From Bacteroidota bacterium (GTDB lineage: Bacteria > Bacteroidota > Bacteroidia > UKL13-3): a DNA stretch of 64,000 nucleotides. Each line of letters starts with the position of its first letter. Position 1 is the stretch's first letter. The notes under the pieces were generated by a model. The model saw nothing but the letters and a program-made list of their open reading frames with translations. It did not search any database and was not told where the DNA came from. Position numbers and translations under genes: made by a program. Shown here piece by piece: positions 47,728-64,000 of this stretch. Where the stretch lies: assembly GCA_947457395.1 (NCBI GenBank), contig CANGVA010000001.1:62001-126000 (forward strand). Direction: 5' to 3'.

Positions 47728-48407
47728 GAATAAAAAGACTCTCCTTTCAGGTATTTGGTTTTAAGAAGTGAGCATATTTTATAACGCTCCTCACGGGTGT
47801 CCAAATACAGGGCTTCCAGTGTTTCATAGACATGTTTTATACCTATTTTGTCGGCCCACTCCAGAGGACCAAATGGATAGTTGGTTCCCAGTTTCATAGC
47901 TGTATCAATATCTGCTACAGAGGCAGTGCCCTCCTGTAGGGTATAACACGCCTCGTTTATTATCATGAATAAAATCCGTGGTGTTACCATACCCACACGG
48001 TCAGTTACCAGGTAATATTCCAAGGATAATGCTGCCATAGTGGCTTTAAGTGCTGATTCGTTTTCTCTTTGGTAAAGAGATACTTCTGCTGTAGTTCTAT
48101 TAATAAACCCGGGAAGCGCGTTAAGGCCAAAAAGCAAACATTCCGGTTTGCGTCCGTACTCATAAGTGGCAGCAGCCAGTTGTATTTTTACCGCAGATAA
48201 AAAGACTGGCTTATTTTTAAGACCAGCATAATATTTAAGTTGAGCCGGGTGTTCATCAAAATCCAGGTCGAAAATGATATCAAACAACTGCAAATCGAAA
48301 TTTGATAAATTTGTATCATCAATAATCGTCCACTCACATGAAACGTTTGCCAATCTGTTTTTCAGTTCTGATGTGCGTATTTTTTCTCCACGTACAAAAA
48401 TCTTCAT
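47724..48407 (-). CDS. 3-hydroxyacyl-CoA dehydrogenase C-terminal domain-like protein
   Basis: TPRILFMIINEACYTLQEGTASVADIDTAMKLGTNYPFGPLEWADKIG. Confidence 0.8.
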   Translation of the reverse strand: MKIFVRGEKIRTSELKNRLANVSCEWTIIDDTNLSNFDLQLFDIIFDLDFDEHPAQLKYYAGLKNKPVFLSAVKIQLAAATYEYGRKPECLLFGLNALPGFINRTTAEVSLYQRENESALKATMAALSLEYYLVTDRVGMVTPRILFMIINEACYTLQEGTASVADIDTAMKLGTNYPFGPLEWADKIGIKHVYETLEALYLDTREERYKICSLLKTKYLKGESFYS

Positions 48408-48417
48408 TTGCGCAAGT

Positions 48418-48443
48418 TAAATTTGTTTCCTCAAACAAAGATA
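48418..48443. promoter_or_regulatory. dyad of two opposed -7 boxes between ridA and the dehydrogenase-like gene
   Basis: TAAATTTGTTT-CCTC-AAACAAAGATA: plus-strand TAAATTTG and minus-strand TATCTTTG joined by 7-bp inverted arms. Confidence 0.5.
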
Positions 48444-48457
48444 AAAAACCCAAAAGC

Positions 48458-48841
48458 ATGGAAAAGAAAATCATTACTAGCAGCAAAGCCCCTGCTCCCA
48501 TAGGGCCATACAGCCATGCCAATTTAATTGGCAATACCCTTTATGTTTCAGGTCAGGTAGCCAAAGATGCCCAAACCGGGGAAATGGTACAAACCGATAT
48601 AAAGGCGGAAACCCGTAAGGTTATGGAAAATGTTTTGGCTATCTTACAAGAGGCAGGAATGGACCAGACCCACATTGTAAAGACCACTATATTCTGCACC
48701 GATTTGGCACACTTTACCCAAATTAATGAGGTTTATGGTAGTTTTTTCAGCGGAAATTATCCGGCCCGTGAAACAGTTCAGGTTGTAAAGTTGCCATTAA
48801 ATGCCAATGTAGAAATATCTGTAGTAGCCGTTAGACAATAG
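48458..48841 (+). CDS. ridA: RidA family protein
   Basis: KAPAPIGPYSHANLIGNTLYVSGQV; start placed at MEKKII (48458). Confidence 0.93.
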   Translation: MEKKIITSSKAPAPIGPYSHANLIGNTLYVSGQVAKDAQTGEMVQTDIKAETRKVMENVLAILQEAGMDQTHIVKTTIFCTDLAHFTQINEVYGSFFSGNYPARETVQVVKLPLNANVEISVVAVRQ

Positions 48842-49116: not shown

Positions 49117-50865
49117 ATGAAAAAATTACTACTAAATTTATTAGGCGTGACGGCAATGGTTTTACCGTTAAGCCTCTCTGCTCAAACGGCTAGAGTTATG
49201 GCCATTCACAACAGTGCCGATCCGGCTGTGGATACAGTGGACGTGTGGCTCACTGTTTCAGGAGTTTCAACCAAAATTGCGGATAATCTGGCTTTCAGAC
49301 AGTCTACAGGCTTTATTAATGCCCCTGCCGGTGTTAGTATTCGCCTGGCTTTCGCTCCCAAAACAAGTACCGTTATTGGCGATACTTTATTAGGGTTTGG
49401 CTATAATCTGGTTGCCAATGAGCGTTATGTATTATTGGCACAAGGGCATGTTGGAACAGGATTTAATCCACAATTCCCCTTTAACCTACATGTGGTTAAC
49501 CCTGTGCTTGAAAGATATACCGGTGCCGGAGACTCAACAAGCCTATCTGTTGTGCATGGCGCAACAGATGCCCCTACAGTGGACGTGTCATTAAGGATTG
49601 GGAATGAAGATGCAGGTTATTTGACAAATCTCGACTACAACAATAATTATAAGAACGTTCTATTACCAGTAGAAAACTATTTTATTGATTTGATACCATC
49701 TAATACAGAGGAAGTTTTGATTACCTATGCAGCACCAATTAAAGCGCTAAATCTTCAAGATAGCGCAGTAGTTGTTTTTGCATCCGGATTTTTGGATCCT
49801 TCTAAAAATAAGAATGGTAAACCTTTCGGATTATTTGCGGCACTATCTAACGGTACTGTTGTTGCACTTCCGGTGCAAAATACTTTCAGGCTTCAAGCGT
49901 TTCACAACTGCGCTGATCCTGCAGCAGATACGGTTGATGTATGGCTTATTAATAATGACAATGATACCAAAACTAAACTTATTCCTGATTTTGTTTTCAG
50001 AAAAGCTACGCCATTCATTAATGCCCCTGCTGGTGTTGACATAGGTATTGGTGTTGCTCCACGCAACTCAACTGAAAATGATATTATTTATACTGAGGAG
50101 GTTGGTAGGGTTCCAGGAGGATATTCTGCAATTGCAGTGGCTGGTGGTGTATTGGATACTTCTAAATTCCAGGCTAATCCTTCAGGTGTTGAAATAAGTT
50201 TTGCAATCAATGGAGCATCTGCATTAGAAAAATCTCCTGTGGCAGGTAAAGTTTGGCTGAATGTATATCATGGATCAACCGATGCCCCAGCTGTAGATGT
50301 GAAGGTAAAAAATGGTCCAACACTGTTTAGTGGGTTGGAATTTACAGATGGTGGCGAAACAGGGATAGCAGTGACCGCGCAATCTTACACAATAGATATT
50401 ACACCTGCAGGCAGCTCCACTGTGGTGGCATCATACACTGCGCCACTCACAGGTTTTGCTGATAGCGGAATTGTAGTTATTGCCTCAGGCTTTTTAACGC
50501 CCAACGTCCCAACCGGCAGAGATGCAGGTGCACCATTTGGTTTGTTTGCTGTTACCCCATCGGGTAATGTAATAGCATTGCCTGCTATAAGCACATCGGT
50601 TAATGATATCAGAAAAAGCTTCAGTAATTTGCAATTGTACCCAAATCCTGCAACCAGCAATATTGTTATTGCATCAAAAGAGTTAACAAGCGGAACAAAC
50701 ATATCCTTAATGGATATTACAGGAAGAGTAGTATTGAGTTATGAATTAAGTCAGGAAAACAAAGAAGAAGTTAGCCTGAACATTGATGGTTTAAACAAAG
50801 GTATGTATATGGTACATATCCAAAACGCATCATCTTCATCAGTATATAAATTGATTAAGCAATAG
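49117..50865 (+). CDS. tandem DUF4397-domain protein with T9SS type A sorting domain
   Basis: Signal peptide; HNSADPAVDTVDVWL / HGATDAPTVDVSL / HNCADPAADTVDVWL / HGSTDAPAVDVKV; C-term LQLYPNPATSNIVI. Confidence 0.92.
   Translation: MKKLLLNLLGVTAMVLPLSLSAQTARVMAIHNSADPAVDTVDVWLTVSGVSTKIADNLAFRQSTGFINAPAGVSIRLAFAPKTSTVIGDTLLGFGYNLVANERYVLLAQGHVGTGFNPQFPFNLHVVNPVLERYTGAGDSTSLSVVHGATDAPTVDVSLRIGNEDAGYLTNLDYNNNYKNVLLPVENYFIDLIPSNTEEVLITYAAPIKALNLQDSAVVVFASGFLDPSKNKNGKPFGLFAALSNGTVVALPVQNTFRLQAFHNCADPAADTVDVWLINNDNDTKTKLIPDFVFRKATPFINAPAGVDIGIGVAPRNSTENDIIYTEEVGRVPGGYSAIAVAGGVLDTSKFQANPSGVEISFAINGASALEKSPVAGKVWLNVYHGSTDAPAVDVKVKNGPTLFSGLEFTDGGETGIAVTAQSYTIDITPAGSSTVVASYTAPLTGFADSGIVVIASGFLTPNVPTGRDAGAPFGLFAVTPSGNVIALPAISTSVNDIRKSFSNLQLYPNPATSNIVIASKELTSGTNISLMDITGRVVLSYELSQENKEEVSLNIDGLNKGMYMVHIQNASSSSVYKLIKQ
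49192..50590 (+). repeat. two tandem ~232-aa units (each two DUF4397-like halves)
   Basis: Unit starts RVMAIHNSAD (49192) and RLQAFHNCAD (49888) are 696 nt apart; end approximate. Confidence 0.8.
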
Positions 50866-50956: not shown

Positions 50957-53900
50957 CTAGAAATCCATGCTGAGTGATAAATAGTAAACCGGTTTTCTGT
51001 TAACCTCTCGATCTTGAATGCCCCATGCGGTATCAAATCTCACAAAGTAACCGAATAACTTGGTACGCAAGCCACCGCCCATTCCTGCTACAATAGGCTC
51101 CCTAACATTAATTACTGTAACACGGATATATTTTTTTTCAACGACCTTTAAATTATTGGTATTTTCCTCCGAATAAGGATCGCTTCCTACCCAAGCAGTT
51201 CCAATATCAAAGAAAGGTACCACTTGAAAGTTGTTGATAAACTCAGAACGTATTGGTCTGTTAAATAAATAGGAGAAAACAGGGAAACGAATTTCATTGC
51301 TGATACATGCGAATGAATTTCCGTTTCTAATGTTTTGATTAAACCCCCTCATATTGGTTGCCAGCGCCTGAAAGGCATAATTTTCTGTAGCGATGGTTCC
51401 TTGTGAGTTATCAAACTGTGCAAAGAGCCAGTTATCAACGCCACCCATAACATACTTCACCTTAGCTGGCCCGAATGAAGTATTATATGTGATACGTGTT
51501 GCAAAAATTAATTGCCTATGTAATGGTTCATAGTGCCTGAAGTCAAAACCTACTGCATTGAGTTGCACATCCTCATTATCCCAATTTTGATATCGCTCGT
51601 AAAAAATTTTGAAACGGGTACCATTCCATAGGTTTAAGCCTTTGGGCACAGTATTATCAAAAACAAATTCTGCTTTACCTCCATACCAGTAATTTAAATT
51701 ATCAGGCCTTTCAAGAGAAGTTCTGGATGTTGCCAAAAATATATCGCGGTCGGCTCTGCCAAAAATGCTAAGCCTTAAACTCATAACCGGATTAAAAGGA
51801 TATTTTATCTGGTATCTTATTTCATTGGAGATGCTATTTACTGCCGTGTTTTCTGCTTGCCCCTCTCGTACCTGTCTGTAAAAAGTAAATTTATGATCCA
51901 GTTTTTTCTTTAGGTTTTCATATGACAGGAAATAGTCGGCACCTGTAAAATCCAAGGTAAACCTAACCCCGCCTACAATGCGATAGTCCTCAAATAAATC
52001 TATTAACCCTACCTTAAACATGCCGTTTAATCCGGGATTAAACATATTTTGGCCACTGGGCACAATTGGCTGATAATAGGTGTTTATAATGGAGTTATCC
52101 AATTGCGTAACCAGAAAGTCAGAGAAAAAGGTAACATCATAAAAGCGAGGCGCGGCCAGTTTAAAGTTTTTTCCCAGGCCCGATGCAGGTAGTTTATATT
52201 CCTGCTGAACTTTTATATCCTCAGGTTTCGCGGTAGGAGATGTAAATTCATTAACAAAGAAATAAGCATATTTTTCAACCACTACCTCTTTCTCAGCTAC
52301 GATTGGTTGTATGTCTGCTTTTTTTCTGCGCTTGCTGTATACAACCGGTCCGGAAACGAATGACTTATTTACAGGACCTGATTTTAGCCTGTACATATTT
52401 GGGTAAGTTTCAATTTTTCTGCTATCGGCTTCTACTGTTTTTGAAACAGAGACATTCTTTATGTGAAATTTTTGCTCATCAAAAATGACTTCATACAGCT
52501 GCTGAGTTTGCCTTGCCACATCATGTGAGAGAATACTCCTTTTATAATTGGTAAGTGGGTATGTATATACAATATCTTTATTATGGATAATGGTATCTAT
52601 TTTAACCACATTACTATCCAGCACCATTCTTTTACCTTCATATTCAAACTCGCTGCCCTGGTCTTTGAGTTCATCATAAAACAAGGTATCTGCTGGTATT
52701 TCAGGATTGCGGTAGTGTATATTTAACTCTGTAAAATCATACTCAGTTTCTACGCGCACGGCATACCTGTTTTTAATGCCATTATAATCTGTAAGGTAAC
52801 CGAAATAATTATTGCTGTATTCAATTGGGTGTGTCTCATTTATTCCGGGTGAGTAGGTTAGCCGTTTTAATTCAGTACCCGGATCTTCAAAATCATATAA
52901 GTAAATATCAAGATTGTTTCCTTGCTGCAGGGTAGGTGTGGATGGCGCCCCAATTAAATTACTGTTTCGGTTAGAGGAGAATATGATTTTTGATGAGCCA
53001 TCTACAAACCTAGGGTAGAGATCATCATGCATGTCATTTGTAAGTTGCCGCTCTCTGCGGCTTTGGATATCATATGAGTAGAGGTCTGACTGTCCTTTTC
53101 TGACGGCCGATAAAACAAGGGTGCGCTGATTATCTGAATAAGTGAATGATAAAATTTTATCAAATTTCAGGAAAGGTGTGTGCTGTTTCTTTTTGGTGAT
53201 GAGGTCTACAGTTGTAAGAATTACTTTCCCTCTTTTCTCATGTATATATGCAAATTTTTCGCCTCCGGGATGCCATGCAACCATTGGATAAGAGTGGTCA
53301 AGTTCTTTTTGGTGATATTTTAAGCCACCCTTATGGATTTTTTTGCTTTTACCAGTTTGTGTGTTAAGCATCCATATTTTGTATTTGCCGTTGCGGTTTG
53401 TTTTGTAAATCAACCGATCACCTTTTGGGCTTACGCTCAAATCAGGCTCTACATAAGGCATCAAACGCTTCTTAACTTTAAAACCGTTATTAGGCAAGGT
53501 TCTGCCATTGTCTTCTTTGGCATATTGATCTCTATAATATTGGAGCCAGTCTTTGCTGCTTTGCTTAAGTGATGTTCCGGTAACATAAATAAGTGCAGTT
53601 TCAAAATTACGACTGATTCTTGTTACGTAAAGCATTTGGGCTACTACCTCTATGCCATATTTTTCTATCAAAAATCTCCAGTATGAGCTGCCTGCCAGCA
53701 GATAATCTTGCTGAATTAGGCGGTTAAACTTTTTAAACTTAGGCTTTGCTATGATATCTTTTAGCAGATTATCTTTCTCAACGTCCCACGGGTTTCCAAT
53801 ATACTCGGATAGGCCAAACAAATACCAATCTGGCAGATTAAGCAATGCTGCATTTTGAATCCGCTCCTGAATATTTCCGCCAAAAAGCAGCTCGTTAATA

Positions 53901-54343
53901 AGCACTAGTGCAATACCTGAGCGTATTTGTTTTTTAAAATCGGCATGGTTGCCTGTGAAATACACGAATACCTTATTGCTATTAACTTGGGATGTGCCAC
54001 CGGTATTCACCGGTTCATCGGTTAGGTTAAAATTGCCTTGTTTATAATCACTCAGGTTGTTGTAGCAAATAATTTCAACCCTGCCGCTCAGTCGGTGGTC
54101 TAAAATATTCTCAATCTCATTTAATTCAGCTTCAGCGGTGCGTGCTGCAAAGGTTGCAAGCTCTCTTCCCCCTGAATAAAAGTAAGCGTCATAATTCTCT
54201 GAACGCAGATAAGACCATTCAAACCTACCATATTGCACCCTGTTTTGACCAAAAGTAGTATACATGCCCTGTCCCTGCACCCTAAATATTCCAAGCAGGG
54301 AAATACCGCATAGAACTAAGAATATGTTTTTACGATGTCTGAT
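50957..54343 (-). CDS. TolB-like beta-propeller plus outer-membrane beta-barrel (BamA/surface-antigen-like) protein; start codon problematic
   Basis: PD40-like repeats (LSVSPKGDRLIYKTNRNGKYKIWMLNTQTG), C-terminal barrel ending in aromatic residue (YYLSLSMDF). ORF-track start is GTG at 54280; in-frame upstream IRHRKNIFLVLCGISLLGIFRVQGQG to ATC at 54343. Confidence 0.82.
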   Translation of the reverse strand: MRHRKNIFLVLCGISLLGIFRVQGQGMYTTFGQNRVQYGRFEWSYLRSENYDAYFYSGGRELATFAARTAEAELNEIENILDHRLSGRVEIICYNNLSDYKQGNFNLTDEPVNTGGTSQVNSNKVFVYFTGNHADFKKQIRSGIALVLINELLFGGNIQERIQNAALLNLPDWYLFGLSEYIGNPWDVEKDNLLKDIIAKPKFKKFNRLIQQDYLLAGSSYWRFLIEKYGIEVVAQMLYVTRISRNFETALIYVTGTSLKQSSKDWLQYYRDQYAKEDNGRTLPNNGFKVKKRLMPYVEPDLSVSPKGDRLIYKTNRNGKYKIWMLNTQTGKSKKIHKGGLKYHQKELDHSYPMVAWHPGGEKFAYIHEKRGKVILTTVDLITKKKQHTPFLKFDKILSFTYSDNQRTLVLSAVRKGQSDLYSYDIQSRRERQLTNDMHDDLYPRFVDGSSKIIFSSNRNSNLIGAPSTPTLQQGNNLDIYLYDFEDPGTELKRLTYSPGINETHPIEYSNNYFGYLTDYNGIKNRYAVRVETEYDFTELNIHYRNPEIPADTLFYDELKDQGSEFEYEGKRMVLDSNVVKIDTIIHNKDIVYTYPLTNYKRSILSHDVARQTQQLYEVIFDEQKFHIKNVSVSKTVEADSRKIETYPNMYRLKSGPVNKSFVSGPVVYSKRRKKADIQPIVAEKEVVVEKYAYFFVNEFTSPTAKPEDIKVQQEYKLPASGLGKNFKLAAPRFYDVTFFSDFLVTQLDNSIINTYYQPIVPSGQNMFNPGLNGMFKVGLIDLFEDYRIVGGVRFTLDFTGADYFLSYENLKKKLDHKFTFYRQVREGQAENTAVNSISNEIRYQIKYPFNPVMSLRLSIFGRADRDIFLATSRTSLERPDNLNYWYGGKAEFVFDNTVPKGLNLWNGTRFKIFYERYQNWDNEDVQLNAVGFDFRHYEPLHRQLIFATRITYNTSFGPAKVKYVMGGVDNWLFAQFDNSQGTIATENYAFQALATNMRGFNQNIRNGNSFACISNEIRFPVFSYLFNRPIRSEFINNFQVVPFFDIGTAWVGSDPYSEENTNNLKVVEKKYIRVTVINVREPIVAGMGGGLRTKLFGYFVRFDTAWGIQDREVNRKPVYYLSLSMDF

Positions 54344-54546: not shown

Positions 54547-57500
54547 ATGAAAAACCTCAATTCTCCTCTCAGAGTTGTTACTCTGCTATTCTTTTTTATT
54601 ATTCAGGCAATTCCTTCAACAACCTATGCAGCACTCTCAGGTAATTATACCATCGATTCATCTCAAGCTGCTACGTTAACCAATTACCGCGACTTTGTAT
54701 CTGCTATTAGTGATATGCGGATTGGAACGCGCTCAGACGGAGGCACGCCTAATGGGGCAGGACTTACCGGCCCCGTTGTTTTTAATGTGGCTGCGGGCAC
54801 GTGGGTTGGGCAACTGGATATTACCGGAATAACCGGTGTAAGTGCAACTAATCAAATAACGTTTGATGGCGGAAACGGAAATGCTGCTACCCGTATCATT
54901 CAGTTTAGTGCTACTTCACTTGCTTCGGCATTTACCGTGCGGATTAACAATCAGCAATTTGTTAATCTTAGAAATTTAACCATTATTGGCTCAGGTCCAA
55001 GTTTTGCATGGCCTTTGCACATTTTCAACACCTCAAGCAACGTCAAGGTTAAGAATTGTATTATTCAATTTACATCAGCATTTTCTGCACACACAAGTAC
55101 CAATTTTGCCGCAGTGGTTCTTAACAACAGCACAGCCAGTCCAACTTCTGGAGGCTCAGCAGCGGTTAATGTAGAAATTGACAGCAATCGCATTGTGGGT
55201 GGGAATGGAAATTATTTAATAGGTAACGGATTAAATACAGGGATCTTTTTCAGAAGAAATCAGGTTGACAGTTCATTTCTTTATGGTGTTTTTGCCCAGG
55301 CTGTTGGGAGTTTAACCATCAACAATAACAGTTTGAACATGCTGAGTGCGGGGAATATTTCATCTGCAGGTATTTATTTAAACAGCACCCCTCCAACTAC
55401 ATCCAGTTTTCATCAAATTAACGGCAACAGTATTATTCAGGCTGGTCTATACGGCATATTTATATCTGGAACAAATGCACAGTCTACTCCGCGCTGTCAA
55501 CTAATCAATAATGCAATTGGAGGTGGCTTCAGGAATACAGGCAATCCTGCAGGAATTTATTTTACTTCTACATATGGTTGGGATGTGTTTTATAACAGTG
55601 TTAATCTAGATAATGTTGCAACTGGTAGTCAGGCTGCTGCTTTTTTCTTTAATAATTGTTGTACAACAGGCTCAACCTTGCTCGATATCAGAAACAACAT
55701 ATTTGCAGTAACTTCTCCATCAAGTTCAGCATTTACTTTTTACTACGTCAATACCAGTTCGTTCCAATATGTAGTAACAACAACGGCTGCATTAAATTTT
55801 AATAATTATTTTAAAGCGGGTATTCAATCTACTCAACCTACGGTATATTTTGGCGGAAGTGTACTAACACCTGCAAACCTGATTGGTAACGGAGGGTACA
55901 ATACCAATTCAATCATTACTGATCCTACGTTTACCAGCAGGTTCAACCTCAGGCCACTCAATCCTTGCAACAATGGAACGGCCATCGCTGGTATTATTAC
56001 TGATCTTGCGGGAGCAACAAGGAATATGCCTCCTGATATTGGTGCCTATGAAGTTACACCTGTTAACAATGATATAGGAGTGGAGCGCATTACCTCGCCT
56101 GCTTTGCCATTTAGTGCCGGTAATCAAAACATAACAGTTGTGCTCAGGAATTATGGGTCCAACACTATTACAAGCGCCAATGTTAGTTATTCAATTAACG
56201 GAGGTTTCCCGGTTACACTGCCTTTTAGCGGAAGTTTAGCCCCTTGCGGTACAGCAACTTTTACTTTTTCTGGTGGCAGCCAGTTTAACTTCTTGCCCAA
56301 CACACCATATCAAATAAAGGTTTATACTGATAATCCAAATAATAATGCAGATGCAGTGCCCGCAAATGATACTGCAAGTATTCCTTTAATATATTCAGGT
56401 TTATCAGGAAATTATACCATTGACCAATCACAGCCTGCAAGCCCAACCAACTTTACCTCGTTTACATCAGCAGCGCTTGCATTGAATAATGGTGGTGTAT
56501 CAGGTCCGGTTTTCTTTTCAGTTCAGGGATCAACGCCTTATGTTGAACAAATCAAGTTAGTAAATGTATCGGGCAGCTCAGCTACTAATACCATTACTTT
56601 TGATGGTGGTGCAGGTAATGCTGCTAACAGAATAATCACATTTGCTGCAACCTTGCAGGCAGAGAGCCATACCATACGTATTGAGAATACGCCTTGGGTA
56701 AATATTAGAAATCTTACAATCAGAGGAACAGGAGCATCTTTTGCCTGGCCAATGCACATATTTGGTAATAGTGCATCCAACATCAAGGTAAAAAATTGTG
56801 TGATGAATTTTACTGGTGGTAATGGTGTTAACGGAACCAATGACAATTTCACAGGATTGGTATTGAACGGATCAACTACGAGTGTATACAGTAATAGTTC
56901 TGCTTTTAATATTGAGCTTGATAGCAATACCATTGATGGTGGCAACAATGGTATGTTTATTTATACCCAAAACAGCAATAATATTACCATGAACAATAAC
57001 CGCATTAATAATGCGAATTTGTATGGCATTTATTTTTACTACACAACGGCCTTTCGTTGTAATAATAATATCATTAACATGAGGCCAACGGGTGCATCAA
57101 ACTCAATGGGTATTTATGCAAATTTTCCTGCCAACTCCGGTACTTATGCCAAAGAAATTATAGGTAATGTAATTACAGATGCCGGCCAGTATGGATTGAA
57201 CCTATATTACATGCAAGGTACCACCGCTCAGCGGGCAAGAGTGGTAAATAACATGATTGGAGGAAATTTCAGAAGTACAGATCCTGCCGGTATTTACATG
57301 AACCAAAATTGTACGAACGTAGATGTATGGTTTAACAGCGTAAATTTAGATAACGCTGCAACATCTACTCAGACTGCCGCCCTTGAGATTTTATTTAATT
57401 GCTCTGGATTAGATGTGCGTAATAATAATCTTGTAGTTACCAATGCTAACTCAACAGCTTTTGCATTGTTGTGCGATAATCAAAGCAGTTTCAATCAACT

Positions 57501-60500
57501 GGATTACAACAATTACTTTAAGGCTGGCAGTCCGCTAAGGCTGGTTGGTATAGGCACCAATGTATACTCACCAGCATCCATGAGAGGAGCCCTAGGTTTT
57601 AACAGCAACTCGGTTAGTATTAATCCTTCCTATGTATCTACAAAAAATCTGGCTACCAATCTTGTGTGTAACAATGGTATTGCAATCCCTGGTATTACAA
57701 CCGACTATGAAGGTCAAACGCGGAATAATCCACCTGATATTGGTGCAGATGAAAATATCAGTGTAGCAGCACTTGACCTAAGCCTGCAGCAAATTACAGC
57801 ACCACAAATTCCGATGCCTGTTGGCACACAAAACATCAGGGTGGTAGTGCGAAATAATGGTAGCTCACCTGTTACCACGGCTTCAGTATATTACAGTGTT
57901 AATGGCGGAACACTTCAAACCATTAATTGGGGTGGTACCTTGGCCCCATGTGATAGTGTTACTGTAGAGTTTAATGCCACGAGTGGTCCGGGTGCTTCAG
58001 ATCAGCGCTTCACATTCCTTCCGGGAACCAGCTATACCATATTGGCTTTTGTTGCGAATCCGAATGGTTCACCTGATTTACTCACAGTAAATGATTCGTT
58101 AATTATGGGTCCTGTTTGTGCTGCATTGGCAGGAAACTACATTATTGACAGTTCTGCTTCTGCACAAACAGCTACTACATTCACCAGTGTTTCCGCTGCA
58201 GCCAATGCTTTGAGTTGCGGTGGCATTACAGGGGCTGTTAATTTTGAAGTACTTCAGGGAACATATATTGGTCAGGTAGATATTTCCAATGTTTCAGGCG
58301 TATCTGCTATCAATACCATAGAGTTTAATGGTGGTAATGGCAATGCTGCTAGTCGTATCTTAAGCTTTGGAGCAACGACAACTAATTCACTTCATACCCT
58401 ACGTGTCAACAATACGCAGTTTGTTACCCTACGTAACCTTACTATTCGCGGAACAGGTGCAAGCTTTGGATGGCCGCTTCATTTACTTAATAATACCAGT
58501 AATACAAGAATCAAGAATTGTATTATAGACTTTATCGGTAATGGATTAAATGGCACTTCAGATAATTACGTGGGTATTGTTATGAATAATTGGAGTGCTT
58601 CTGCCTCACCCACCAATTCATCTTCATCATCTATAAATGTTGAGATTGATAGCAATACGATCCGTGGTGCCAACTCATCAGTTTACCTTGTAGGTAATGG
58701 AAATAACACAAATATCTTTTTTAGAAACAATACTTTAGATAGTGCCAATTTTTATGGCTTGTATGCACAAAGTTTAGTAGGTGCAAAAATGAATAACAAC
58801 ACCATAAACATGAGGACTAATGGAAGCACTTCAAGTTATGGCTTTTTCCTTTCAAGTATCAGCGGAACTGCAAGTGCCTTCGCGGAGCTAAACAGAAATA
58901 AGATAATTAATGCAGGCCAATATGGTATTTATGTTGCCAGTTCCACAGCAAACATTGCTAACCGAGCGCAATTGATAAATAATGCTGTTGGAGGTGGGTT
59001 CAGAAATAGCACACCATATGGTATATTCCTAACATCTAGCAGTAACTGGAATATTTGGTTTAACTCTGTGAATATTGACAACGTAGCTTCAGGAACTGCA
59101 GGTGCATTGTTTATCCAGTCAACATCTACTTTGAATGATGTGAGAAACAATAATCTTGCATTAACTCAACCATCTGTAGGAGCAAATATGCTGCCATTAC
59201 GTGCAGCAGCCGGCTGTACTTTTACTACACTTAATTTTAATAACTATTTCAGGCCCGCAACAACTAACCAGCTAATTAATGTAAACGGCACCAATTTTGA
59301 CACCCTAAACTACAATACATTGGCTGCAGGAGGAGTAAACTCGATTAGGAACAATCCGCAGTTCGCAGGGTCAAGAGATTTAACAATCAATACTGGTGCT
59401 AATAATGGAGTATTTATTTCTTCTGTTACAACAGACATAAATAATAATATTCGCAACAACCCGCCAGATATCGGATCTTATGAAACTACTTCAGGATTGG
59501 CGGTTGATTTAGGAATAGTTAGCCTTATTTCTCCTGATACCTTTCTTTCATCAGGTTTAAGAGATGTAACAGTATTGGTAAGAAATTTCGGAACTACACC
59601 TATAACGTCATTTAATTTAAGGCATACAGTAAACGGTACTGCTATGCAAGACAGTATATTTACAGGTTTAAATCTGGCAATAAATGATACACTGCGTATA
59701 ACGCTTAGCGGATCCAAAAGGGCAAATTTCCTTACGGGTATATTAAATTCTTTCAGGGTATATATTCATCAGCCTAATGGGGGCGTAGATAATAATAATA
59801 TCAATGATACCATTACCGTTGGGCCAAAATTTTCAGCACTCAATGGAAACTATACCATCAATCCTTCAGGTTCAGGAGCAACCAATTTTACTACTTTTCG
59901 TGCTGCTGTTAACGCACTGAATTTAGCAGGTGTAGCAGGCCCGGTTGTGTTTACAGTTTCTCCGGCAACGTATAATGAGCAGGTAAATATTGGTATAGTT
60001 GCAGGAGCTTCTGCAACCAATGCCATTTCGTTTACAGGAACAAATGTGGCAACATGTATCATAGATACGGCAGCCAATACTGCTACAAATTATCATACAA
60101 TAAGGCTAACAGATGCGGCATTTGTGAGTTTACGTAATTTAACCATCCGCTCATCAGGCGCTTCATTTGGTGTTGCACTGCAAATTAGCGGCAATAGCAA
60201 CTTTAGTCGTGTAAAGAATTGTGTAATTGAAATTTCTGGAGCAGCCGCAGCCAGCACTAGTTCTAATTTTATTGCTGTGCTTATGGGCAATACAACGAAT
60301 GTGACCTCTCCTTTTTTCAGTGGCCAGCAGATAACGGGTTTTGAGCTAGATAGTAATATTATTAATAATGGGTATTACGGAATATTTATGTTTGGTCGAT
60401 TCAGCACGCCCTTTCCTTTTGATAACATGATTAGAAGAAACCAGATAATGAATGCTTTTTATTATGGTGTTTATGTTTCAAATTTTGAGGCGCTTAATTT

Positions 60501-63500
60501 TAGTAATAATATAGTAAACATGAGAAACCCGGGCACAACCAATGCTTATGGTTTTTATATGCAGAGTTCACAGAACACCCTTGATAGAATTCATAGAATA
60601 AATGGCAACCGATTTTTTAATAGTGGTAATTTTGGAATCTATATTACCAGTTCCGGTTCAGGTACCACAGGAAGAAATCAGCTTATTAATAACATGATTG
60701 CAGGAGGCTTCCGGACATCAAATGCCTATGGTATTTTCCTTAGTGCGGTTGATAATTTTGACATTCTGCATAACTCTGTGAATATTGATATCTCTACCAG
60801 TAATATTCAGTTTGCGTCACTATTTTTAAGTGGCGGCAATAACCTGGATATTCGTAATAATATTTTTGCACATACAGGTGGTGCAGGAAGTGCAGGTATA
60901 CCCGTTTATATCTCAAATCTTCCCGGAGGCTTATTCCGCTTTGATTTCAATAATTATTTTAAAACTTCTACAGCTAATAACACACTTTTATATATAGCAG
61001 GTCCAACATTTAACAGTTTAAATTATAAAGGGGCACTTGGCTATAACACCAACTCTATTGATGTAAATCCTCAGTTTGTTTCATCGGTTGATTTACGAAT
61101 AGGAAATGGCTGTTTAAATGGATTGAATACCGGACAGGTAGCCACAGATATAGATGGAGATATCCGCAATAATCCTCCGGATATTGGCTGTGATGAGTAC
61201 ATTGGGCTAAATAATGATATTGGGGTGGTTTCTGTTACACCGTTTGGTGCGGGTACTCAAAATGTGCGAGTCCTTATAAGAAACTTTGGAGGCAACACAG
61301 TTACATCAGCATTGGTTGGTTACGCTGTTAATGGTGGTCTTGCGAGGGTTGTTACCTTCAACGGTAGTTTGGCACCATGCGATACTGCTACGGTTGTATT
61401 TAGTGGCACCAATCAGTTTACATTTAATTTTGGTGTAAGCTACACCATAGCCGCTTACACGTCTGCACCTAATGGATTATTAGATTCCCGTCAGTCAAAC
61501 GATACATCAATACTTGGACCAACATGCGTTTTCTTAAATGGCGCATACACTATTAACCCTTCTGGTAGCGGATCAGCCAATTTTACATCCTTTACCGCAG
61601 CAGTTGCTGCTCTTAATTGTGGGGGCGTTTCCGCTCCTGTAGTTTTCAATGTAGCTGCCGGTACATATAATGAGCAAGTTGCATTACTTTCTTCTGTTAT
61701 TGGTAGCCCTGCAAATAGCATCACCTTCCAATCAGCAACTGGTCTTGCATCGAGCGTAACCTTAACATTTAATGCCACATCATCTGCGGCAAATTACACC
61801 CTTAACCTTTCAGGTGCCTCAAACATCAGATTCAGAAATATGACTATCAGTGCAACTAATTCATCTTTTGGAACAGCACTGTTACTGAATAATAATGCAT
61901 CAAACGATTCATTCATTAATGTAGTTTTTAATTCTCCTGTTACCACATCAACCAGTAGTAACATGTCTGTTATTATCTGTCCTAGTCCAACAATATCAAA
62001 TTTTATTTCATTTGATACCTGCCGCATAAATAACGGTGCATATGGAGCATTTTTTACTTCATCCGGCAGCAGTACTTTGGGTCAAAGTTCACAAACGCCA
62101 ACTTTTAATAATTGTGATTTTACCAATCAGTATGCCTATGGTATTTACCTTTCAAATATGGAAGGCGTGAGAATGACAAGGAACAGGATACAAACCAATT
62201 CAGCCTTTATTTCATACGCAGGTATTTATAACTATTGGATTACAATTCAGGCAGATTTCAGTAGGCCATTAATTACACAAAATATTATTTCAGGAGGGGC
62301 AGGTGGCTTTGGTATATATAATAATTATCTAGGTGTAAATTCATCCATGTCTGTTGCACGCAGGCCACTCATCGCGAACAACATGGTTTCAATTGGCACA
62401 GGTGCTAATGCTACAAATGGAATATATGATGCTAATAGCAATTGGGCAGATTATTTCCATAATACTGTAAATATTGGATGTAGCCAAACCGGAAATACAT
62501 CGGCAGCCGGCTGCTTTGTTTCTACATCGTATGGTAACTCAACAATCCTCAATAATATATTTGCAGCTTCTAATGGTGCGCCTGCTTTCAGAATGGATAA
62601 TAATACCTTTTATCCAACCTGTAACTTCAATAACTTTTATACCACCGGACCTAATTTAGCATTTCTTTCTTCATCTCCTTTTGCATCAATGCCTGCTTGG
62701 AGAGTTGCTTCCGCAAGAGATGCCAACTCCGTTAACCTTCCTCCCAACTTTCTTTCATTAACAGATTTACGTATTACTTCTGGCTGTATAAATGGTACCC
62801 TAATTGCCGGACTTAATACAGATATTGATGGGAAAACAAGGTCAAATCCTCCTGATATAGGTGCATCAGAATTTACCGGTTCCATTCTTAACGATATTGG
62901 TTTATCGATGTTGCAATCTCCAACTATTCCTTTTTCACCGGGCTTGCAAGATATACGGGTTGTGGTGAGTAACTATGGTTCAAACACTGTGTCATCAGCA
63001 ACAGTAAGATACCGTGTAAATGGTGGCCTACCTGTTACAGCGTCATATAGTGGTGCGTTGGTTGCTTGCGATACTGCAGGTATTTTATTTACCGGTGCAA
63101 ACAGAGTAAATTTTGTATTGGGTACAAGCTATATGCTACAGATTTGGACTGAGCAACCGAATGGTGTAGCAGATAATAACCGCACAAACGATACCATTAC
63201 AGTTACAATCTGTCCTGCATTAAATGGTCCTTATACCATTAATCCTTCAGGCAGTGGCCCAACAAATTTTACCTCTTTTTCGGCAGCAGCGGCAGCACTT
63301 AATTGCGGAGGCATGAATGGTCCTGTAACCTTTACGGTATCACCTGGCATATACAATGAGCAATTTACACTGAGCGGAATTCAGGGTCTTTCAGCGGTTA
63401 ACCGACTTACCATTAATGGTGTGAGTGCAGCAAACAGAACCATCACATTTAACCCAACCGTCAATTCAATGGGTCATACAATCAGGATACAGAATGCACC

Positions 63501-64000
63501 TTTTGTAAGTATCAGAAACCTAACCATTCTTTCCTCAGGTGCAAGCTTTGGTGCACCTGTACATATCCTTGGTTCGAGCAGTAACGCTTCAGTTAAAAAC
63601 TGTATCATTGGCTTTACGGGCAGTGCTGTGAGCAGCACATCATCGGCATATAATGCTGTAATCATTAATAACAATGCTGATGTTACCAATCCTACAGGAA
63701 CAGGTTCAGCAGGATCGGGTATTGAGATAGATAGTAATAATATCCGATTTGGGTTTTATGGTATTTGTATAAGCGGACAAACCAATACACCATACTTAAA
63801 CAGCATATTCGTTCGTAATAATGTTATTGATAGTGCATTTTCGTCAGGTATTTACACCTACTATACAGAAGCATGTAAGTTTTCTAGTAATACCATTCGT
63901 ATGCGTATTACAGGTAACACCAATTCGTTTGGCATGAGTCTTAATTTTGGCTTCTCATCAAACAGCACCTTATTTCATGAGATTGTTGGTAATGCTATTT
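54547..64000 (+). CDS. giant multi-repeat secreted surface protein (parallel beta-helix plus CARDB-like units), open at window end
   Basis: ATG 54547, signal peptide MKNLNSPLRVVTLLFFFIIQAIPSTTYA; unit-start and PPDIG motifs at eleven positions all in the same frame; no frame-0 plus ORF reported by the track here, consistent with no stop before 64000. Confidence 0.93.
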   Translation, partial: MKNLNSPLRVVTLLFFFIIQAIPSTTYAALSGNYTIDSSQAATLTNYRDFVSAISDMRIGTRSDGGTPNGAGLTGPVVFNVAAGTWVGQLDITGITGVSATNQITFDGGNGNAATRIIQFSATSLASAFTVRINNQQFVNLRNLTIIGSGPSFAWPLHIFNTSSNVKVKNCIIQFTSAFSAHTSTNFAAVVLNNSTASPTSGGSAAVNVEIDSNRIVGGNGNYLIGNGLNTGIFFRRNQVDSSFLYGVFAQAVGSLTINNNSLNMLSAGNISSAGIYLNSTPPTTSSFHQINGNSIIQAGLYGIFISGTNAQSTPRCQLINNAIGGGFRNTGNPAGIYFTSTYGWDVFYNSVNLDNVATGSQAAAFFFNNCCTTGSTLLDIRNNIFAVTSPSSSAFTFYYVNTSSFQYVVTTTAALNFNNYFKAGIQSTQPTVYFGGSVLTPANLIGNGGYNTNSIITDPTFTSRFNLRPLNPCNNGTAIAGIITDLAGATRNMPPDIGAYEVTPVNNDIGVERITSPALPFSAGNQNITVVLRNYGSNTITSANVSYSINGGFPVTLPFSGSLAPCGTATFTFSGGSQFNFLPNTPYQIKVYTDNPNNNADAVPANDTASIPLIYSGLSGNYTIDQSQPASPTNFTSFTSAALALNNGGVSGPVFFSVQGSTPYVEQIKLVNVSGSSATNTITFDGGAGNAANRIITFAATLQAESHTIRIENTPWVNIRNLTIRGTGASFAWPMHIFGNSASNIKVKNCVMNFTGGNGVNGTNDNFTGLVLNGSTTSVYSNSSAFNIELDSNTIDGGNNGMFIYTQNSNNITMNNNRINNANLYGIYFYYTTAFRCNNNIINMRPTGASNSMGIYANFPANSGTYAKEIIGNVITDAGQYGLNLYYMQGTTAQRARVVNNMIGGNFRSTDPAGIYMNQNCTNVDVWFNSVNLDNAATSTQTAALEILFNCSGLDVRNNNLVVTNANSTAFALLCDNQSSFNQLDYNNYFKAGSPLRLVGIGTNVYSPASMRGALGFNSNSVSINPSYVSTKNLATNLVCNNGIAIPGITTDYEGQTRNNPPDIGADENISVAALDLSLQQITAPQIPMPVGTQNIRVVVRNNGSSPVTTASVYYSVNGGTLQTINWGGTLAPCDSVTVEFNATSGPGASDQRFTFLPGTSYTILAFVANPNGSPDLLTVNDSLIMGPVCAALAGNYIIDSSASAQTATTFTSVSAAANALSCGGITGAVNFEVLQGTYIGQVDISNVSGVSAINTIEFNGGNGNAASRILSFGATTTNSLHTLRVNNTQFVTLRNLTIRGTGASFGWPLHLLNNTSNTRIKNCIIDFIGNGLNGTSDNYVGIVMNNWSASASPTNSSSSSINVEIDSNTIRGANSSVYLVGNGNNTNIFFRNNTLDSANFYGLYAQSLVGAKMNNNTINMRTNGSTSSYGFFLSSISGTASAFAELNRNKIINAGQYGIYVASSTANIANRAQLINNAVGGGFRNSTPYGIFLTSSSNWNIWFNSVNIDNVASGTAGALFIQSTSTLNDVRNNNLALTQPSVGANMLPLRAAAGCTFTTLNFNNYFRPATTNQLINVNGTNFDTLNYNTLAAGGVNSIRNNPQFAGSRDLTINTGANNGVFISSVTTDINNNIRNNPPDIGSYETTSGLAVDLGIVSLISPDTFLSSGLRDVTVLVRNFGTTPITSFNLRHTVNGTAMQDSIFTGLNLAINDTLRITLSGSKRANFLTGILNSFRVYIHQPNGGVDNNNINDTITVGPKFSALNGNYTINPSGSGATNFTTFRAAVNALNLAGVAGPVVFTVSPATYNEQVNIGIVAGASATNAISFTGTNVATCIIDTAANTATNYHTIRLTDAAFVSLRNLTIRSSGASFGVALQISGNSNFSRVKNCVIEISGAAAASTSSNFIAVLMGNTTNVTSPFFSGQQITGFELDSNIINNGYYGIFMFGRFSTPFPFDNMIRRNQIMNAFYYGVYVSNFEALNFSNNIVNMRNPGTTNAYGFYMQSSQNTLDRIHRINGNRFFNSGNFGIYITSSGSGTTGRNQLINNMIAGGFRTSNAYGIFLSAVDNFDILHNSVNIDISTSNIQFASLFLSGGNNLDIRNNIFAHTGGAGSAGIPVYISNLPGGLFRFDFNNYFKTSTANNTLLYIAGPTFNSLNYKGALGYNTNSIDVNPQFVSSVDLRIGNGCLNGLNTGQVATDIDGDIRNNPPDIGCDEYIGLNNDIGVVSVTPFGAGTQNVRVLIRNFGGNTVTSALVGYAVNGGLARVVTFNGSLAPCDTATVVFSGTNQFTFNFGVSYTIAAYTSAPNGLLDSRQSNDTSILGPTCVFLNGAYTINPSGSGSANFTSFTAAVAALNCGGVSAPVVFNVAAGTYNEQVALLSSVIGSPANSITFQSATGLASSVTLTFNATSSAANYTLNLSGASNIRFRNMTISATNSSFGTALLLNNNASNDSFINVVFNSPVTTSTSSNMSVIICPSPTISNFISFDTCRINNGAYGAFFTSSGSSTLGQSSQTPTFNNCDFTNQYAYGIYLSNMEGVRMTRNRIQTNSAFISYAGIYNYWITIQADFSRPLITQNIISGGAGGFGIYNNYLGVNSSMSVARRPLIANNMVSIGTGANATNGIYDANSNWADYFHNTVNIGCSQTGNTSAAGCFVSTSYGNSTILNNIFAASNGAPAFRMDNNTFYPTCNFNNFYTTGPNLAFLSSSPFASMPAWRVASARDANSVNLPPNFLSLTDLRITSGCINGTLIAGLNTDIDGKTRSNPPDIGASEFTGSILNDIGLSMLQSPTIPFSPGLQDIRVVVSNYGSNTVSSATVRYRVNGGLPVTASYSGALVACDTAGILFTGANRVNFVLGTSYMLQIWTEQPNGVADNNRTNDTITVTICPALNGPYTINPSGSGPTNFTSFSAAAAALNCGGMNGPVTFTVSPGIYNEQFTLSGIQGLSAVNRLTINGVSAANRTITFNPTVNSMGHTIRIQNAPFVSIRNLTILSSGASFGAPVHILGSSSNASVKNCIIGFTGSAVSSTSSAYNAVIINNNADVTNPTGTGSAGSGIEIDSNNIRFGFYGICISGQTNTPYLNSIFVRNNVIDSAFSSGIYTYYTEACKFSSNTIRMRITGNTNSFGMSLNFGFSSNSTLFHEIVGNAI
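54634..56400 (+). repeat. giant-protein unit 1 (589 aa)
   Basis: Starts LSGNYTIDSSQAATLTNYRDF; PPDIG at 56029; linker to 56400. Confidence 0.88.
56401..58125 (+). repeat. giant-protein unit 2 (575 aa)
   Basis: Starts LSGNYTIDQSQPASPTNFTSF; PPDIG at 57730. Confidence 0.88.
58126..59838 (+). repeat. giant-protein unit 3 (571 aa)
   Basis: Starts LAGNYIIDSSASAQTATTFTSV; PPDIG at 59461. Confidence 0.88.
59839..61533 (+). repeat. giant-protein unit 4 (565 aa)
   Basis: Starts LNGNYTINPSGSGATNFTTF; PPDIG at 61174. Confidence 0.88.
61534..63219 (+). repeat. giant-protein unit 5 (562 aa)
   Basis: Starts LNGAYTINPSGSGSANFTSF; PPDIG at 62848. Confidence 0.88.
63220..64000 (+). repeat. giant-protein unit 6 (truncated by window end)
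   Basis: Starts LNGPYTINPSGSGPTNFTSF. Confidence 0.85.

Follow-up and report, generated by a model that had tools for sequence, protein, structure and literature searches.

In the 64,000-nucleotide window analyzed here (G000:C1:62001-126000, where G000 is the source genome of 2.54 Mb in 34 contigs), the forward frame opening at ATG 54547 encodes the N-terminal part of a giant protein. Translation of the window revealed that this frame is free of stops up to the edge at 64000, and reading the parent contig beyond that edge located the stop at C1:134633 (window-equivalent 72633). The protein is thus 6,028 aa long (~635 kDa), and slightly more than half of it is encoded within the window. An earlier note on this DNA had claimed one open frame from this ATG, and the parent contig bears it out: no in-frame stop was found between 54547 and 64000, and the extension past 64000 that it proposed as a check supplied both the stop and a count of nine repeat units. 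Presumably, the gene is missing from the mechanical ORF list because its frame leaves the window, rather than because it is hidden, since a frame running off the window enters such a list only if open ends are permitted.

Next to the giant gene, on the reverse strand (50957-54280), lies a divergent neighbor of ~1,102 aa with TolB-like beta-propeller repeats, which is 90.6% identical and syntenic in G001, a genome of the same genus. Between this neighbor and a RidA-like gene (48338-48841), we found a gene for a 582-aa T9SS type A protein (49117-50865); G001 does not have it, and its flanking genes adjoin there. The features of the giant gene within the window are collected in Table 1.

Table 1. 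Features of the giant gene located in the window
Feature	Position	Strand	Basis
Giant gene, N-terminal 3,151 codons	54547..64000	+	Frame reading; stop outside window
Putative Sec signal peptide (MKNLNSPLRVVTLLFFFIIQAIPSTTYA, approximate end)	54547..54630	+	Read directly in translation
Beta-helix 1	54634..56052	+	Unit profiles
CARDB 1	56053..56400	+	Profile matches
Beta-helix 2	56401..57753	+	Unit profiles
CARDB 2	57754..58125	+	Profile matches
Beta-helix 3	58126..59484	+	Unit profiles
CARDB 3	59485..59838	+	Unit profiles
Beta-helix 4	59839..61197	+	Profiles and AlphaFold2 model (pLDDT 92.9 over entire unit)
CARDB 4	61198..61533	+	AlphaFold2 model; matches 3idu
Beta-helix 5, hybrid: caps from positional lineage, core from another	61534..62871	+	Trees, sliding identity
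Replaced core of beta-helix 5, approximate (aa ~2380-2730; +/- ~20 aa per breakpoint)	61684..62736	+	
CARDB 5, positional orthologue retained	62872..63219	+	CARDB tree
Beta-helix 6, first 260 of 449 aa; remainder beyond window	63220..64000	+	Unit profiles

The giant protein consists, in order, of a signal-peptide-like start, nine units pairing a beta-helix with a CARDB domain, a series of Ig-like domains, and a T9SS type A sorting domain. Direct reading of the translation shows basic residues and a hydrophobic core at the start, and the corresponding stretch of the G001 copy is likewise a basic-hydrophobic leader. The units begin at aa 30, 619, 1194, 1765, 2330, 2892, 3454, 4023, and 4580 (i.e., at a spacing of 557-589 aa), and each comprises a right-handed beta-helix domain of 440-473 aa (~450), which ends in a PPDIGAxE-type cap, and a CARDB spacer of 92-124 aa (~115), where 120-132 aa had previously been claimed for the linker. 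The six-unit repeat described earlier is real, but its count was not correct, as the window holds five complete units and a partial sixth helix (63220-63999), and the protein nine. Unit 9 is followed by eight Ig-like domains of 90 aa, which match the Pfam families Ig_3 and Ig_7 ('CHU_C associated'), and by a ninth, degenerate one. Pairwise identity among the units is 28-46% for the helices and 26-49% for the CARDBs. When scored with profiles of their sibling units, each helix reaches 500-637 bits and each CARDB 106-161 bits, values that are partly high by construction. Given these scores, together with the identical architecture and length in the independent same-genus genome G001, the repeat is, as judged by sequence comparison, far beyond chance.

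An AlphaFold2 model of unit 4 (59839-61533), for which an alignment of 37 units served as input, has a mean pLDDT of 92.9 and a pTM of 0.86. In it, regular short beta-helix strands run to approximately residue 390 and give way to an extended cap, and the Ig-like domain starts at residue 461, so that both folds expected by the earlier note are present in the prediction. A model of helix 4, CARDB 4, and helix 5 together (pLDDT 85.9, pTM 0.55; the helix 5 alignment is thin) is fairly confident inside the domains, but not between them. Comparison with the PDB using Foldseek matched the helix to phage tailspikes, PL6 alginate lyases, the epimerase AlgE6, pectate lyase Pel9A, and the adhesin PfbA, and the spacer to the CARDB of PF1109 (3idu; TM 0.66-0.68 on the target). 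Fold and sequence searches with the CARDB pointed to 3idu/2kl6; the influenza haemagglutinins that appeared at E 0.006-0.09 in the sequence-only PDB search with this domain were dismissed as chance, as the fold search gives CARDB. In a viral structure library, the search returned generic phage and viral beta-helix proteins only, and a sequence search of solved structures with the whole-unit profile found none.

The family databases agree with these models. Pfam Beta_helix (PF13229) matches seven of the nine helices, with member 1 over the cut-off, and Pfam CARDB (PF07705) matches four of the nine single linkers, which often fall under the cut-off individually; on the window protein, CARDB scores 34.9 bits (cut-off 22.7). 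The beta-helix body and the CARDB/Ig-like linker, both proposed in the earlier note, are therefore borne out by Pfam and by the modeled unit, with its matches to solved beta-helices and to the PF1109 CARDB. In the window protein, the PPDIGAxE cap matches the NCBIfam choice-of-anchor Q domain NF041518 (35 bits versus a cut-off of 25). The remaining Pfam/NCBIfam matches of the helices are one weak NosD and one weak acyl-CoA thioester hydrolase (pectinesterase-like), with no lyase family among them. Across the 37 aligned units, 51 columns are conserved in at least 85% of sequences, and 27 of these are Asn or Gly; the invariant Asn columns of the helix form an Asn ladder. The same alignment contains no conserved Lys/Arg/His/Glu set in the helix body, the exception being D437/R443/E453 in the C-terminal cap; the conserved charged residues are located in the cap and the CARDB. 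Charged residues are few (Lys 1.0%, Glu 0.8%).

The last 77 residues match the T9SS type A sorting domain (TIGR04183) at 42 bits against a cut-off of 23 (49 bits in the genome-wide scan), and a search of the protein for the type B sorting domain gave no match; the T9SS C-terminal domain predicted earlier is thus present and of type A. The source genome encodes SprA/Sov (SprA, 541 bits) and PorV (499 bits versus a cut-off of 250), and it contains 96 type A tails that exceed the cut-off. Some of these tails end other very large frames, located at C3:184840-185046 (4769 aa), C2:15902-16135 (4262 aa), C11:18456-18689 (4209 aa, with one CARDB-type match), and C4:151437-151667 (3282 aa). In addition, contigs C7 and C10 start with equal-scoring tail fragments (both at 42-140), which are probably a single repeat where the assembly broke. 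Type A cargo depends on PorV (PMC12618676); in Porphyromonas gingivalis, PorU cleaves such cargo, which becomes linked to LPS (PMC9143113). By analogy, we infer PorV/PorU-type processing for the giant protein, which very probably resides on the cell surface.

To what extent the protein is conserved within its genus can be seen from the G001 copy, which is also 6,028 aa long, aligns without gaps at 85.9% identity, and has an identical architecture. The dN/dS ratio between the two is 0.066 overall and 0.02-0.13 in every domain but the signal peptide; these ratios are approximate, as dS is saturated above ~1.5 and near saturation in many segments. Such values point to strong purifying selection between the two species. 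Synonymous divergence is uneven along the gene: dS is 0.4-0.9 in units 1-3 (window 54634-59838; 1.6 in CARDB2) and 0.21 in Ig4 (aa 5415-5504, outside the window), with most of the gene at 1.2-3.5. The low-dS stretches suggest interspecies recombination tracts.

Free gain and loss of units is the usual expectation for repeat adhesins. In the present array, exactly nine units are found in each of G000 and G001 (one genus) as well as G018 and G015 (two other genera), and G084 appears to hold the same array across contig pieces. A tree of 87 helices recovers positions 1, 2, 3, 6, 7, 8, and 9 each as a four-species clade with 99-100% bootstrap support, and position 4 likewise (100%); the CARDB tree does so for all nine positions (eight at 98-100%, position 9 at 89%). 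Apart from helix 5, nearly every unit shares more identity with its counterparts at the same position than with units at other positions, although the margin is in some cases only 1-5 points. The Ig-like domains, by comparison, number 9, 9, 11, and 10 in G000, G001, G018, and G015, respectively; the middle of this stalk displays lineage-specific duplication (e.g., Ig7-9 of G018), and positional sharing is clear only at the first domain, with weaker hints elsewhere. As these trees and counts indicate, no fewer than four species from three genera share unit number and order, while the Ig stalk is subject to turnover. The giant-gene neighbors are common to G000 and G001, but no shared neighbors were found in the fetched flanks of G018 and G015, so the protein retained its unit order in changed surroundings. 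Collectively, the two halves of one protein obey opposite rules, with the number and order of helices and CARDBs fixed and the Ig stalk changing.

Helix 5 is the exception to positional descent. An AU test separates helix 5 of G000/G001 from that of G018/G015 at p 2.7e-39, a generous value, since position defined the group but the test came once the tree had already been viewed. Helix 5 of G000/G001 falls among the units of other giants, the nearest being a G020 unit (61%) that is second in a different array, whereas CARDB5 groups with its own position. Sliding identity follows the G018/G015 type up to aa ~2370-2390, then the G020/G017 type as far as ~2725-2745, and the G018/G015 type again thereafter. 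Since it flips and then flips back, these comparisons indicate that a core of ~350 aa was replaced from another lineage, most simply in the G000/G001 genus, with both caps and CARDB5 retained. The G000 genome has no other helix copies that could serve as an internal source, and therefore the core probably came from another genome or from a lost paralogue. A swap on the G018/G015 side would be the less parsimonious account, given that helix 5 in those two clusters with the other units of its own array.

The unit itself is not rare. A profile of the unit matched 56 of 58 relatives at E <=1e-3 and, at E 1e-30, 119 of 295 genomes taken from the whole class. Open frames of ~5,000-7,000 aa with several units occur in G005, G012, G014, G015, G017, G018, and G022; in a class relative, one unit (G200:C76:19441-21081, reverse strand) lies inside an open frame of 9,439 aa. 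Given these wide matches and many long frames, the helix-CARDB module and the giant format can be regarded as ordinary in the group, and multi-unit giants as common in the family, contrary to the rarity that the earlier note implied. In the open-licence literature, we found no paper on giants of this repeating beta-helix and CARDB type. As the 565-aa module is widespread and yet has neither a full-length profile nor a paper that we could find, a family model would improve the annotation of many Bacteroidota surface proteins.

Our preferred reading, to which we assign a probability of roughly 0.7, is that the protein is a giant adhesin, anchored as T9SS type A cargo, and that it binds glycans through nine beta-helix heads that are not interchangeable. 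Its surface position would follow from the known pathway by analogy, and we infer its orientation, glycan binding, and adhesion. The protein would be exported by Sec, pass the outer membrane through the SprA/Sov channel, be collected by PorV, and be anchored to the cell surface through its C-terminus. The approximately nine Ig-like domains would then form a cell-proximal stalk, and the nine beta-helix heads with their CARDB spacers a distal rod that ends in the unit next to the signal peptide; from the usual dimensions of coils and Ig domains, we take the total length to be roughly at least 100 nm. The beta-helices are most likely carbohydrate-binding adhesin modules and not enzymes. Because number and order are fixed and the modules are not interchangeable, each of the nine probably has its own ligand or place. 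Recombination between conserved caps could replace beta-helix cores, altering one head at a time.

A mainly structural role, i.e., a length-setting rod or a matrix/S-layer-like fibre whose helices have no specific ligands, would suit the Asn/Gly ladders, the scarcity of Lys and Glu, and the purifying selection and unchanged length seen between members of the genus. We nevertheless consider it unlikely, because the units of a pure spacer should be free to vary in number and order, as those of the Ig stalk are, whereas the nine helix positions remain distinct and a core was swapped without altering the number of units. Still less probable, in our estimation, is a surface multi-enzyme of strung polysaccharide lyases or epimerases acting on alginate- or pectin-like polymers. 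Although PL6 lyases, AlgE6, and Pel9A are among the nearest PDB folds, identity (10-15%) and TM-scores are low, the families matched are generic Beta_helix with the weak NosD and pectinesterase-like hits, and the absence of a conserved charged set from the helix body argues against a shared catalytic site; an individual unit may still be active as an enzyme. Misassembly of a repetitive gene, as the origin of either the number of units or the odd helix 5, was rejected as highly improbable: although the source genomes are fragmented and several relatives' records are metagenome-assembled, the units are too unlike for an assembler to collapse or misjoin, and order, length, and helix-5 type all recur in G001, a second species.

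Beyond the adhesin reading, we tentatively postulate that the nine helices are distinct recognition heads kept in a fixed order across several genera, whose specificity evolves by exchange of the core alone. The caps would stay conserved, a single position would change in each event, and the new cores would come from a pool in circulation among the family's different giants; we consider this possible rather than probable. With the sharply bounded core swap and the opposite rules of its two halves, the protein offers a testable example of how binding specificity may evolve module by module in giants secreted by the T9SS.

With respect to known systems, NF041518 and PF13229 match the cap and the helix body, respectively, but they reach only the cap or generic coils and not the full unit, and no library model that spans all 565 aa was found. 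PfbA of Streptococcus pneumoniae (PDB 4mr0, 3zpp), identified by the fold search, is likewise a beta-helix surface adhesin, but its solved structure has a single helix domain, and it is a Gram-positive protein with 11-12% identity. SprB, the gliding adhesin of Flavobacterium johnsoniae, is also a repetitive giant T9SS surface protein of Bacteroidota and comes close to the present one in mass (669 kDa; PMC9143113), but it has a type B C-terminal domain and the partner SprF, whereas the present protein belongs to the type A, PorV-using class (PMC12618676). The closest published case that we found is Giant1-5 of Apilactobacillus kunkeei, surface proteins of 3,000-8,000 aa with beta-solenoid heads that are thought to bind glycans and with beta-solenoid domains exchanged between genera (PMC12863079). 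The likeness lies in giant size, beta-solenoid heads, and domain exchange. In contrast, Giant1-5 are Gram-positive proteins with SH3b-like C-terminal attachment, and in Giant1-4 the beta-solenoid is solely N-terminal, on an alpha-helical or beta-sheet rod (PMC12863079), whereas the present protein has nine beta-helices per chain, CARDB spacers, an Ig stalk, and a T9SS anchor. What is new here, relative to the papers searched, is the fixed order of nine units combined with a swapped core.
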